Assembly: GCA_003225335.1 (NCBI GenBank)
Contig: QHZE01000441.1
Span: forward strand, 1-38,314
Direction: 5' to 3'
From: Acidobacteriota bacterium
Lineage (GTDB): Bacteria; Acidobacteriota; UBA6911
DNA: 38,314 nucleotides
Part shown: piece after piece, positions 2,656-38,267 of the stretch
Layout: each line of letters begins with the position of its first letter
Position numbering within the stretch: the first letter of the stretch is position 1
The notes under the pieces: generated by a model
Database searches by the model: none
What the model saw: the letters and a program-made list of their open reading frames with translations, nothing else
Told to the model about the DNA's origin: nothing
Made by a program: the position numbers and the translations under genes

Positions 2656-2896
2656 CGATTGCGGATTTCGGATTTGGGGTCCTTGACTCTCTTAAGGGCC
2701 GTGAAGAATTCAAATTCGTGCCAATCGTGGAATTCGTGGCGAGTAAACCCATCACGAATTCCACGATTTTCTCGGAAACGATCATTCGGATGTCATCGGC
2801 GCCCAGGGAAAAGAAATCGCGCGGTTAACAATCCGCAATCCACAATCCGCGATCCGAAATCGCAATCGGGGTACCTGGGAACGCCGGGGAGTGGTA
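2656..2896. repeat. Nested palindromes: CAATCCG family around a CACGAATTC hairpin
   Basis: Immediately after the TAA at 2653-2655 comes a GATTGCGGATTTCGGATT arm; its complementary CAATCCGCAATCC arm is at 2827-2866. Between them lies a perfect 16-bp inverted repeat, AATCGTGGAATTCGTG (2723-2738) with its complement at 2753-2768. At 2878-2895 the motif GGGAACGCCGGGGAGTGG follows; the same 18-mer occurs inverted at 7328-7345. The region 2656-3000 shows no credible gene. TATAGT at 2894-2899 could be a -10 box, but no -35 is seen. Confidence 0.75.
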
Positions 2897-20100: not shown

Positions 20101-20271
20101 TAAAGTGCTTGAATTTTTCTGGAGCTTGCCTTCCCACAAATCGTCGGGCTCGTGATGACTTTGAGAAGAGGGGCAAAGGGGTAGACAGTCTCCGGATTTT
20201 CTTCGTTGCATTCGCGAATGTTTTCCGGGTAAATGTTTGTCCAGGTGTATGCAATAGAAAGGGTTTCACCC

Positions 20272-22722
<2,451 letters not shown>

Positions 22723-22727
22723 GGCCG

Positions 22728-24182
22728 ATGATATGCTGTGACGAACTCATGCTTCTGCGGACCCGGCGGCACTTTTTCGAAGAGTGCGCCCTGGGCTTGG
22801 GCAAGATGGCGCTCGCCTCGCTCTTCCTGGGGCCTCGAGCGTTCGCCGGTCAGGACGTGAAACTTCCGAACCCGCTCGCGCCGAAGAAACCCCACTTTCC
22901 GCCACGGGCCAGGAGCGTCATTTATCTCTTCATGGCCGGAGGCCCGAGCCAGCTGGAGCTTTTCGACTACAAACCGAAGTTGCAGGAGCTCGACGGTCAG
23001 CCCATTCCGCAATCCTTCATCCAGGGGAAGCGCTTTGCTTTCATGGACACGTTCACCAAAGAGGTTCCGAAGGTGCTCGGAACGCGGCGGAAGTTTGCGC
23101 AGCGCGGTCAGTGCGGCGCCTGGGTGTCGGAATGCCTTCCCCAGATTGCGTCGGCTGTGGATGACGTGGCCTTCGTGCGCGCCGTGGCGACGGAAGTTTT
23201 CAATCACGCGCCGGCAAAGATTTTTACCAACACCGGGAGTCCTCAATTTGGACGGCCGAGCATGGGCGCGTGGGTCACGTACGGCTTGGGGAGCGAATCC
23301 CAGGATCTGCCGGGCTTCGTTGTCCTCCAATCGGGGCCACGCGGCCCGCGCGGGGGCGCCCCGAACTGGGGAAGCGGCTTTCTGCCGACGTCGTACCAGG
23401 GCGTGCCGTTTCGCGCCGTCGGCGACCCGATCCTGAATCTGACGAGCCCCAAGGGATTCAACCAGCGGCGGCAGGGGCAGGCGCTGGAAGTGCTGCGGGA
23501 CCTGAACATGACAAGGCTGGCCGAAACCGGCGACCCGGAGGTCGCGACGAGAATTGCGTCCTACGAGATGGCTTACCGGATGCAGACGAGCGCTCCGGAA
23601 CTTATGGACCTCACGCGCGAAAGCAAAGAAACCCTCGAGCTCTATGGAGCCGAGCCCGGCCGCAGCTCGTTTGCCAACAACTGCCTGCTGGCGCGCCGTC
23701 TGGTCGAACGAGGCGTCCGGTTCGTCCAGCTCTACCACACCGACTGGGACCACCACGGCGGGCCGGGACAGGATCTGGAGGGGAGCCTCGACAAGGTGTG
23801 CGGGGAAGTCGACCGCCCGTCTGCCGCGCTTGTCAACGATCTCAAGCGGCGCGGGCTGCTCGATCAGACACTGGTCGTCTGGGGCGGAGAGTTCGGCCGC
23901 ACTCCCATGGGGGAGAAGCGCGAGACCGTCGGCCGCAATCACCACATTGACGCTTATACCATCTGGATGTCCGGCGCCGGTGTCAAGCCGGGAACAACGG
24001 TCGGGGAGACAGACGAGCTCGGATTTGGTCCGGCTGGAGACCCCATTCGCGTGCACGACATTCAGGCAACCATCCTGCATCTTCTCGGCCTGGATCATCT
24101 CAAACTGACATTCCGCTTCCAGGGCCGCGATTTCCGCCTGACCGACGTAGGCGGCAAGGTCATCACCAAGCTGTTTGCTTGA
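22728..24182 (+). CDS. DUF1501 (sulfatase-like fold) protein with Tat signal, partner of the cytochrome-like protein
   Basis: 484 aa from ATG 22728, 5 bp after the upstream stop with GGGAGTAGGG as ribosome-binding site. Twin-arginine-like start RTRRHFFEECALGLGKMALASLF. DUF1501 hallmarks: SVIYLFMAGGPSQLELFDYKP (metal-site-like strand, residues about 62-85), FTNTGSPQFGRPSMGAWVTYGLG, VRFVQLYHTDWDHHGG, LVVWGGEFGRTPMGE and the C-terminal HDIQATILHLLGLDH. These are alkaline-phosphatase/sulfatase-superfamily features. Likely periplasmic and acting with the preceding gene product. The substrate is unknown. Confidence 0.9.
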   Translation: MICCDELMLLRTRRHFFEECALGLGKMALASLFLGPRAFAGQDVKLPNPLAPKKPHFPPRARSVIYLFMAGGPSQLELFDYKPKLQELDGQPIPQSFIQGKRFAFMDTFTKEVPKVLGTRRKFAQRGQCGAWVSECLPQIASAVDDVAFVRAVATEVFNHAPAKIFTNTGSPQFGRPSMGAWVTYGLGSESQDLPGFVVLQSGPRGPRGGAPNWGSGFLPTSYQGVPFRAVGDPILNLTSPKGFNQRRQGQALEVLRDLNMTRLAETGDPEVATRIASYEMAYRMQTSAPELMDLTRESKETLELYGAEPGRSSFANNCLLARRLVERGVRFVQLYHTDWDHHGGPGQDLEGSLDKVCGEVDRPSAALVNDLKRRGLLDQTLVVWGGEFGRTPMGEKRETVGRNHHIDAYTIWMSGAGVKPGTTVGETDELGFGPAGDPIRVHDIQATILHLLGLDHLKLTFRFQGRDFRLTDVGGKVITKLFA

Positions 24183-24264: not shown

Positions 24265-24364
24265 TGGGAGCGCAGGTATCCTGTTCACCACGAAGACACG
24301 AAGACGCGAAGAATCGCAAAGGATTTCTTCGCGTCTTCGTGTCTTCGTGGTGAGTTTTTTTTGG
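24265..24364. repeat. CACGAAGA-family hairpin with 29-bp perfect stem and T8 tail; copy 1 of a near-identical pair
   Basis: Flank TGGGAGCGCAGGTATCCTGT is followed by a left arm at 24285-24313 (CACGAAGA-type octamers). An 11-nt loop and an exactly complementary right arm at 24325-24353 come next, then TTTTTTTT at 24355-24362. The shape is that of a factor-independent terminator for the DUF1501 operon. The whole 100 bp recurs inverted at 27097-27187. Confidence 0.9.
24353..24362 (+). terminator. Putative rho-independent terminator tail after the first DUF1501 gene
   Basis: The 29-bp perfect stem (24285-24353) is followed after one base by eight T residues. It lies 100 bp past the stop of the DUF1501 gene. 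The hairpin belongs to a repeat family, so termination may be an incidental property. Confidence 0.5.
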
Positions 24365-24486
24365 TTGTCACATCAGACCATAATAGGATCTTCCTTCACC
24401 ACGGAGTTTCCATAATCCCGTGCCTCACCACCGCGAATGAAAACCGGGAGGGCAGCGAAGACGCAACCAGAAACTTGGCTCTTCGC

Positions 24487-24528
24487 GCCTTCGTGGTAAA
24501 GCCTGGCCCAATCCACCACGAAGGCTCG
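24487..24528. repeat. CTTCGTGGT palindrome with conserved CAATCCAC loop
   Basis: Left arm CCTTCGTGGT and right arm ACCACGAAGG enclose a loop containing AAGCCTGGCCCAATCC. A related unit with loop AAGGGCTGTGCTCAATCC lies at 29211-29246, so the loop as well as the arms is conserved. A partial copy of the 24265 flank (GGAGCGCAGGCATCCTGT) lies at about 24699-24716. No gene is seen in 24183-24782. Confidence 0.65.
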
Positions 24529-24782
24529 AAGGACGCGGATTGGCGGATCTTTTGGATCAATTTGCTTGCGTGTGAATCGCCGTCGCAATTTGTAAATTGC
24601 TTGACGGGCGGAGAGCCGGAAGCCAGAATCCAGGAACCACCGATGAACAACTAGCCCGAAAATCCTTTGTTTTTTGGAATTTTTGTGCGTTCTCTGAGGA
24701 GCGCAGGCATCCTGTGATTTTTTTGAGGTTGCGGCTTGCTGCACGGTGTTTATCGGTGGTTTCATTCAGACTCTCGGGAGCG

Positions 24783-27029: not shown

Positions 27030-27050
27030 TGGCAACCAAAAACATGAACG

Positions 27051-27365
27051 AAAACCACAGATGAACACAGCTGAAGACAGAGCGGCCCCGCCGCAGCCAA
27101 AAAATCTCACCACGAAAACACGAAGACGCGAAGAAATCCTTTGCAATTCTTCGTGTCTTCGTGGTGAACAGGATACCTGCGCTCCCAGAGACGACCTCCG
27201 CGTCTCTGCGGTGAGGTTCGGAGTTCAGGCTTTAGCCTGCTACGGACCCAGGGCAGCCTGAAGGCTGGGCTCCAAACCTGGGACAAATGAGTTCGTGGGC
27301 TCTTTTTTTTGGTTTTTTGGTTGCGGCCGTGCTGTTCCAGGTTCATCTGTGTTCATCTGTGGTTT
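27051..27365. repeat. Nested palindromes between two hydrolase-like genes
   Basis: Outer arms: AAAACCACAGATGAACACAG at 27051-27070 and its complement at 27341-27365 (ACAGATGAAC decamer units). Next inward, CCGCAGCCAAAAAA (27091-27104) pairs with TTTTTTGGTTGCGG (27313-27326). Inside lie the CACGAAGA hairpin with its CAGGATACC flank (27097-27187; an inverted copy of 24265-24364) and a TTCAGGCTTTAGCCTG/CAGCCTGAAGGCTG pair at about 27222-27268. No gene is seen in 27030-27417. Confidence 0.85.
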
Positions 27366-27417
27366 CATTTTGTTGTTACGTTTCGGCGTCTTGCGACTCT
27401 ATTGAAGAGGAGGAAGG

Positions 27418-28964: not shown

Positions 28965-29290
28965 GTCGAGCAAGAAAGAATGAAACCATGGATGAACGCA
29001 GAGACAGCCGAGCCGCAACCAAACTGATCTGCTTAGCGTTTTCTTTGCGTCCTTCGCGTCTTAGCGGTGAAAGCGCTGTCCGGAATTAACCGCGAAGACG
29101 CGAAGAGCGCAGAGAATCCGCGAAGAAGAATTCTTTCCAAGCGGCAAAGGATTTACACGTTAGTAGTACAGATGAACACAGATAACCAAAAACTTCGCGT
29201 TTCTTCGCATCTTCGTGGTAAGGGCTGTGCTCAATCCACGACGAAGACGCAAAGACGCGAAGAATCACGAAGGCTTTTCCATTGACAATC
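28965..29290. repeat. Mixed CACGAAGA / ACAGATGAAC palindromes
   Basis: TTTGCGTCCTTCGCGTCTT at about 29042-29060 pairs with AAGACGCGAAGAGCGCAGAG at about 29094-29113. A lone ACAGATGAACACAGAT copy lies at 29168-29183, and TCTTCGTGGT/ACGACGAAGA with the conserved CAATCC loop at 29211-29246. The 345-bp gap 28960-29304 contains no credible gene; the next gene has its own GGGGAGG at 29291-29297. Confidence 0.65.

Positions 29291-38190: not shown

Positions 38191-38267
<77 letters not shown>

Follow-up and report, generated by a model that had tools for sequence, protein, structure and literature searches.

Nested tandem-unit palindromes in an Acidobacteriota genome as probable gene-less derivatives of very small mobile elements

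Introduction

REP systems are composed of small, high-copy palindromes at gene ends, which form mosaics and include a few gene-bearing copies with the same flanking palindromes (PMC3733652). The intervening sequences (IVS) of 23S rRNA, whose ORF is the IVP, are patchily distributed and replace the tetraloop of an rRNA helix, which is a hairpin-tip position, and in Coxiella the heptamer is repeated in tandem, (GACAGAT)n, ahead of the IVS ORF (PMC4990558). The IVS is an independent precedent for the unit arrays and for the hairpin-tip location described below. In cyanobacteria, very small mobile repeats were reportedly described by Elhai and colleagues inside tandem repeats, with filled as well as empty sites, and to our knowledge no enzyme is known for them.

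The window, which is the whole stretch of 38,314 nucleotides analysed here, had been reported in a preliminary description to contain palindromes nested inside other palindromes at 27051-27365 and at 2656-2866. The nesting had been read as insertion of elements into the loops of older ones, giving a relative order of events.

Results

Layout of the nested composite at 27051-27365

The nested arms were found where the preliminary description had placed them; features are given without strand unless one is stated. The outer arm A, with the 10 nt unit ACAGATGAAC, was found at 27052-27070 on the left, with at least 89 own-genome 24-mer matches at up to one mismatch, and at 27341-27365 on the right, in inverted-repeat pairing with the left arm (27052-27070 with 27347-27365, and also 27056-27066 with 27341-27351). 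The centre of A contained the arms of module B (GCCGCAACCAAAAAA family), of which the left, a CCGCAGCCAAAAAA arm at 27083-27104, pairs with the right at 27313-27334, and A together with the CCGCAGCCAAAAAA arm forms one inverted repeat of 53 nt with 81% complementarity. The C hairpin (27107-27167, 8 nt unit CACGAAGA) contained arms at 27107-27126 and 27148-27167 that are 95% complementary, and a loop, AAATCCTTTGC, that resembles module F. This hairpin and the TTCAGGCTTTAGCCTG pair (27224-27239 with 27255-27262) are adjacent inside B and neither encloses the other. Module D (27170-27193), a weak pattern, was found to be half of a GGGAGCGCA palindrome, followed by module J (27194-27216), half of a palindrome of 8 nt units, CCGCGTCTCTGCGGTGAGG, and by module E (27217-27279), which contained two opposite-facing REP-like hairpins with a GTAG tag and then CAGGCTAAAGCCTG on the minus strand. 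The conserved tail of E, named E3 (ACAAATGAGTTCGTGGGCTC), was found at 27283-27302. The predicted RNA fold of 27048-27369 reached -173 kcal/mol (z = -12.9), and the only match in an Rfam scan of the window was a tRNA at 38191-38264.

With an inverted-repeat pair defined as at least 11 bp exact with a span of at most 350, 46 pairs were counted in the window, where block shuffles averaged 3.5, and nested pairs numbered 12, with 0.01 expected from shuffles. A 726 kb sample of the own genome contained 488 pairs against about 63 in shuffles, with 83 nested pairs against 0-1. The nesting of palindromes in the window is real and beyond chance.

The nest at 2656-2866 and other composites of the window

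The CAATCCG arms at 2656-2866 do enclose a perfect hairpin, as had been described, of 16 bp (2723-2738/2753-2768). The arms belong to module I (7 nt unit GCAATCC; left arm 2656-2674, right arm 2830-2862), and the region 2654-2868 was predicted to fold with z = -4.8. The loop of this I hairpin was found to be 153 nt long against mostly 0-49 nt in the other I hairpins, and the additional sequence comes from the H repeat family, as a fragment (2681-2799, plus strand) with the perfect hairpin as its core. Full H copies are about 300 bp in length with their own terminal inverted repeats; the family is MITE-like, with GGGTGCAATTAGAAGTGGGAGTCAA ends and a central CACGAATTC hairpin, and was found in the window, at the own-genome loci L049, L002 and L066, and at others.

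A second composite (24266-24761) contained modules C, B, A, F and D, and a third (28984-29254) contained modules A, B, K, F, A and C. At 20233-24182 the window carries a planctomycete-type gene pair, PSCyt1/PSCyt2/PSD1 and DUF1501, in what is presumed to be an Acidobacteriota genome.

Module families and filled or empty palindromes

At least 93 partial matches to the 336 bp around the nested composite were found in the own genome (40 of the 994 candidates scored), and in the 30 own-genome places compared the modules were found to recur in many combinations. The parts of the composite are separable repeats, each also present by itself at other places. The units were ACAGATGAAC (10 nt) in A, GCCGCAACCAAAA in B, CACGAAGA and its relatives (8 nt) in C, J and K, AATGACA (7 nt) in G, CACGAATTC (9 nt) in H and GCAATCC (7 nt) in I. 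All module patterns except D were far above the shuffled control, D being near chance with 81 matches against 51; these patterns were defined after inspection of the sequences, and the statistics come from about one tenth of a genome assembled in 795 fragments, in a sample partly picked for matches.

The A hairpins of the own genome were found to be empty in 6 cases and filled in 20, and the B hairpins were filled in 14 of 14, whereas the I (CAATCCG) hairpins were empty in 24 cases and filled in one, the filled copy being that at 2656-2866. A and B are thus the usual hosts, and other palindromes are nearly always empty. The combinations seen were A empty, A with F, A with B and E, and A with B and C. 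Read inward from its outer end, A is GAAACCACAGATGAACACAGATGAACACGGATC, and the empty copies continue directly into the complementary arm (ACACGGATCTGTGTT); in the filled copies B takes over after ..GGA, or F after ..GGATC, in either case only a few bases from the dyad. The position of these fillings agrees with entry at the hairpin tip.

The composite A-B-C-D-J-E-B-A was found to recur at L007 and L010 (reversed), and in a degenerate, partial form in L074, with unrelated flanks. Since the composite recurs whole elsewhere, the nesting at 27051-27365 was probably fixed before its arrival and gives no local order of events, so that the relative order claimed in the preliminary description is not obtained here. 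The copy at L010 holds an additional REP-pair element beside the J arm, between two copies of AGC; L002 provides the empty site of this insert, reading CTCTCAGCGTCTC across it, and the window and L007 are also without it. The ends of this element (L010, about 1560-1690) read GGTCGTGAGAAAAAAT/ATTTTTTCTCACGACC and GTAGCGCCGGCGTCTCGCCGGC, with AGC on both sides. Growth by insertion is therefore real, yet it is not solely into loops, and finished composites are copied too. The part of the earlier reading that concerns insertion into the loops of older palindromes is accordingly retained for the separable repeats, the filled and empty paralogs and the A fillings at the dyad centre, and does not extend to the L010 element, which sits beside the J arm.

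Arm similarity within elements exceeded random re-pairing only for C and H; arm covariation is weak as proof of a conserved RNA, and the other families appear to be without visible pairing constraint. A palindrome in L074 (6619-6799) contained perfect arms of 57 bp with the same departures from the family consensus in both arms, a pattern suggestive of copying from one arm to the other. No match to the composite element was found at E <= 1e-6 in 14 other members of the family; the flank gene of the window locus has only 38-39% identity within the family, and one genome represented the genus in the comparison.

GxxExxY genes between tandem-unit arms

The A pattern was found in 26 of 396 genomes across the phylum, in scattered families, and several of the loci have a small gene between the two arms, GxxExxY (TIGR04256/PF13366 profile match above cut-off). 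Five GxxExxY loci were found in the own genome, of which L128 lies in K arms and L131 in arms of 8 nt units, L129 has an A arm on one side only, and the remaining two are broken or at contig ends. Of the A type, only one GxxExxY gene was found in the own genome, and it retains a single arm, whereas A palindromes number in the dozens. The arm type of the C hairpin also flanks own-genome GxxExxY genes (L128 and L131). In the A-type genes (L102, L105 and L129), the ATG was found inside the arm unit (GATGAACAC), and the arm encodes the N-terminus MNTD.

Arms were scored at 108 GxxExxY loci, from many phyla and two archaea and with 30 from the phylum, as the best alignment of the upstream flank to the reverse complement of the downstream flank. 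A score of at least 15 was found in 83% of these loci, in 0.9% of 466 other positions within them and in 12% of swapped pairs, and a score of at least 20 in 61% against 0.6% of other positions. The arms were found to be arrays of 8-10 nt tandem units and were more periodic than shuffled arms in 76 of 76 cases. The arm class (GAT, GAG or AAG core) tracks the protein tree, needing 8 changes where shuffles gave 28.7 and none of 200 shuffles came as low, a result to which the use of two locus sets from different searches may have added signal.

The predicted model of GxxExxY (pLDDT 94.7) contained a minimal PD-(D/E)XK core, and its nearest solved folds were lambda-exonuclease and Cas4-like nucleases, with modest scores (E 0.002-0.01); no sequence match was found in the PDB. 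D66 and E76 (A2 numbering) were invariant and K78 was nearly invariant. With these residues, GxxExxY would probably be an active nuclease. Within the full-text library searched, no paper was found to tie GxxExxY to repeats, and the arm letters gave only chance matches.

S23/IVP genes between tandem-unit arms

Eight IVP loci were found in the own genome, of which L282 lies between G arms and four others between different tandem-unit arms. An arm score of at least 15 was found in 30 of 34 IVP loci (29 from the phylum and 5 of the own genome) against 0 of 58 other positions. The IVP arms contained units of 7-8 nt, and unit length differed by gene, with 10/9/8 nt in GxxExxY (28/12/5) against 7/8 nt in IVP (22/6; p = 3e-13).

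Two gaps across Geothrix species

The first gap, with a DUF350 gene on one side and a spermidine-synthase-like gene on the other, was compared in 29 Geothrix species, of which 19 were empty and 5 contained a whole A-armed GxxExxY element of about 420 bp. The gene was found to be internally deleted in G256 (element of 298 bp), G226 contained a bare hairpin, G332 a C-type palindrome, G176 a degraded K-like palindrome and G152 K-like arms with DUF4268. The G152 gene (PF14088; L250, in the L245-L274 gap) lies between tandem-unit arms (CACCACCAAGACACCAAGG), and cargo beyond GxxExxY and IVP therefore exists. The states are scattered on the species tree (10 changes), and gains and losses are not separable at every species. 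The short element of G256 and the hairpin of G226 look like gene-bearing elements minus the gene, and G256 is sister to G377, which carries the full element, so that the pair provides a route by which gene-less copies arise. Such gene loss means that an outer palindrome without the inner one can also come from loss.

In the second gap, at the 3' end of guaA, the empty species were found to have directly overlapping genes, and palindromes of four unit families, or what is left of them, were present in 18 other species. In a clade of six species the palindrome was present in G160 only and the five others were empty; by parsimony, this gene-less palindrome is most simply a gain, which shows that gene-less palindromes of this kind do come in. 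The four unit families of the guaA gap (L313-L342) occur in different species and always right at the gene end, which may mean either that the site is strongly preferred or that the unit sequence turns over. A clean target-site duplication of constant length was not found in the highly diverged Geothrix gap alignments, AGC being present only at the L010 insert. Equivalent elements were found in near-complete Geothrix genomes (G377, G211 in one contig).

Discussion

The palindromes are probably gene-less derivatives of very small mobile elements. In its full form, an element would consist of inverted arms of about three short tandem units each around one small gene, which is either GxxExxY (PD-(D/E)XK nuclease fold, 8-10 nt units) or an S23/IVP four-helix bundle (7-8 nt units). 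In the own genome, modules A, C, J and K, with H by unit grammar, belong to the GxxExxY kind, and G, with I by unit length, belongs to the S23/IVP kind. B, D, E and F were found to have no tie to either gene, E being a REP pair.

Internal deletion would strip the gene and leave the hairpin, and the hairpins would come to lie at the ends of genes and in the middle of palindromes already present, giving nests, of which finished ones, such as that at 27051-27365, would then be copied as a single block. That elements insert secondarily at the centre of palindromes finds support in paralogs with and without a filling. In the likeliest scheme, the nuclease would cut the target or the hairpin and repair would copy the element in, and a few intact genes may mobilise the gene-less copies in trans; mobilisation by GxxExxY is what we infer. 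Folding of the transcript may let host RNA tolerate the insert, as with the 23S rRNA IVS, and a folded transcript, if trimmed in the manner of the IVS, would account for tolerance near or within operons.

The 23S rRNA IVS (e.g. of Coxiella and Leptospira) and the elements described here both contain inverted-repeat ends that form a long stem around a small four-helix-bundle gene, the S23/IVP ORF lying in the loop of full copies (30 of the 34 IVP loci; L282 with the G arms of the window module). The elements described here differ from the IVS in that those of A, C, J and K type carry GxxExxY instead of S23/IVP, many elements here are gene-less and the unrelated GxxExxY family uses the same plan. 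The window and listed loci also sit between protein genes and not in rRNA, and the elements here are therefore not classed as IVS. MITEs are alike in being gene-less internal-deletion derivatives with inverted ends common to a gene-bearing parent, as in the deletion series of G256 and G226, whereas no DDE transposase parent was found here and the ends are tandem-unit arrays. The cyanobacterial repeats reportedly also include very small elements lodged within other repeats, some sites being filled and others empty. REP, REPIN and BIME systems with RAYT (REPtron, TIRtron) are alike in their high-copy gene-end palindromes, mosaic composites and few gene-bearing copies, and module E resembles a GTAG REP pair; the enzyme fold here is PD-(D/E)XK or a four-helix bundle, not HUH Y1, and the arms are short direct-repeat arrays. 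The own genome contained two Y1_Tnp (PF01797) genes, at L095 and L096, both flanked by other palindromes (GCCCAGGGCGCGAGCCCTGGG-type at L095) and neither by module E. A RAYT as mover of all the palindromes was rejected on the flanks of these genes.

The nests could instead represent one old, MITE-like compound block that spreads whole, the nesting being an ancient build and not ongoing hairpin insertion. This is possible, if somewhat doubtful: the module succession A B C D J E B A is common to L007, L010 and part of L074 between unrelated flanks, and only A and B are common hosts. Against such a block stand the many other module combinations, the extra insert of L010 that is missing at that site from L002, L007 and the window, and the one I hairpin of 25 that is filled. 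It is unlikely that the composites are REP/BIME-like mosaics spread by RAYT (Y1) transposases with the tandem-unit palindromes as passengers, in spite of the two PF01797 genes and the opposite orientation of the GTAG-tagged hairpins of E, as known for REPs (PMC3733652), since A, C, G, H, I, J and K contain neither a GTAG nor a CGTC tag in their consensus, neither Y1 gene has E or tandem-unit arms at its flanks, and it is GxxExxY and IVP genes that the arms enclose.

Hairpins with a regulatory function in the host (terminators, attenuation signals or RNA processing signals), which selection or replication slippage would have multiplied and on which the small genes would land, would fit the gene-end location, the strong folding and the four unit families in different species at the second gap. 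This account is a shade less likely again than spread by RAYT, given the patchy presence, the neighbouring genes that overlap exactly when the palindrome is absent, the arrival of gene and arms together as one insert and the arm class that tracks the protein phylogeny. Repeats can be misjoined in an assembly of 795 contigs, but chance or an assembly artefact is very improbable as the origin of the nests, because almost no nesting is found in shuffles and equivalent elements are present in the near-complete Geothrix genomes.

Beyond the preferred reading, that of gene-less derivatives of very small mobile elements, a wider proposal is offered tentatively as quite possible, though short of probable. 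GxxExxY proteins may be the movers of unrecognised, very widespread minimal elements with short tandem-unit arms, of which the rRNA IVS would be a special case with another gene, and the gene-less copies may target hairpin tips, including those of each other, and so account for much of the palindromic sequence accumulated between genes in many environmental genomes. No role is known for the common small families GxxExxY and S23/IVP, and their shared status as cargo of palindromic elements would give them a testable one. The rRNA intervening sequences would thereby be tied to a broad class of dispersed elements, and a large share of the intergenic palindromes in such genomes would be explained.
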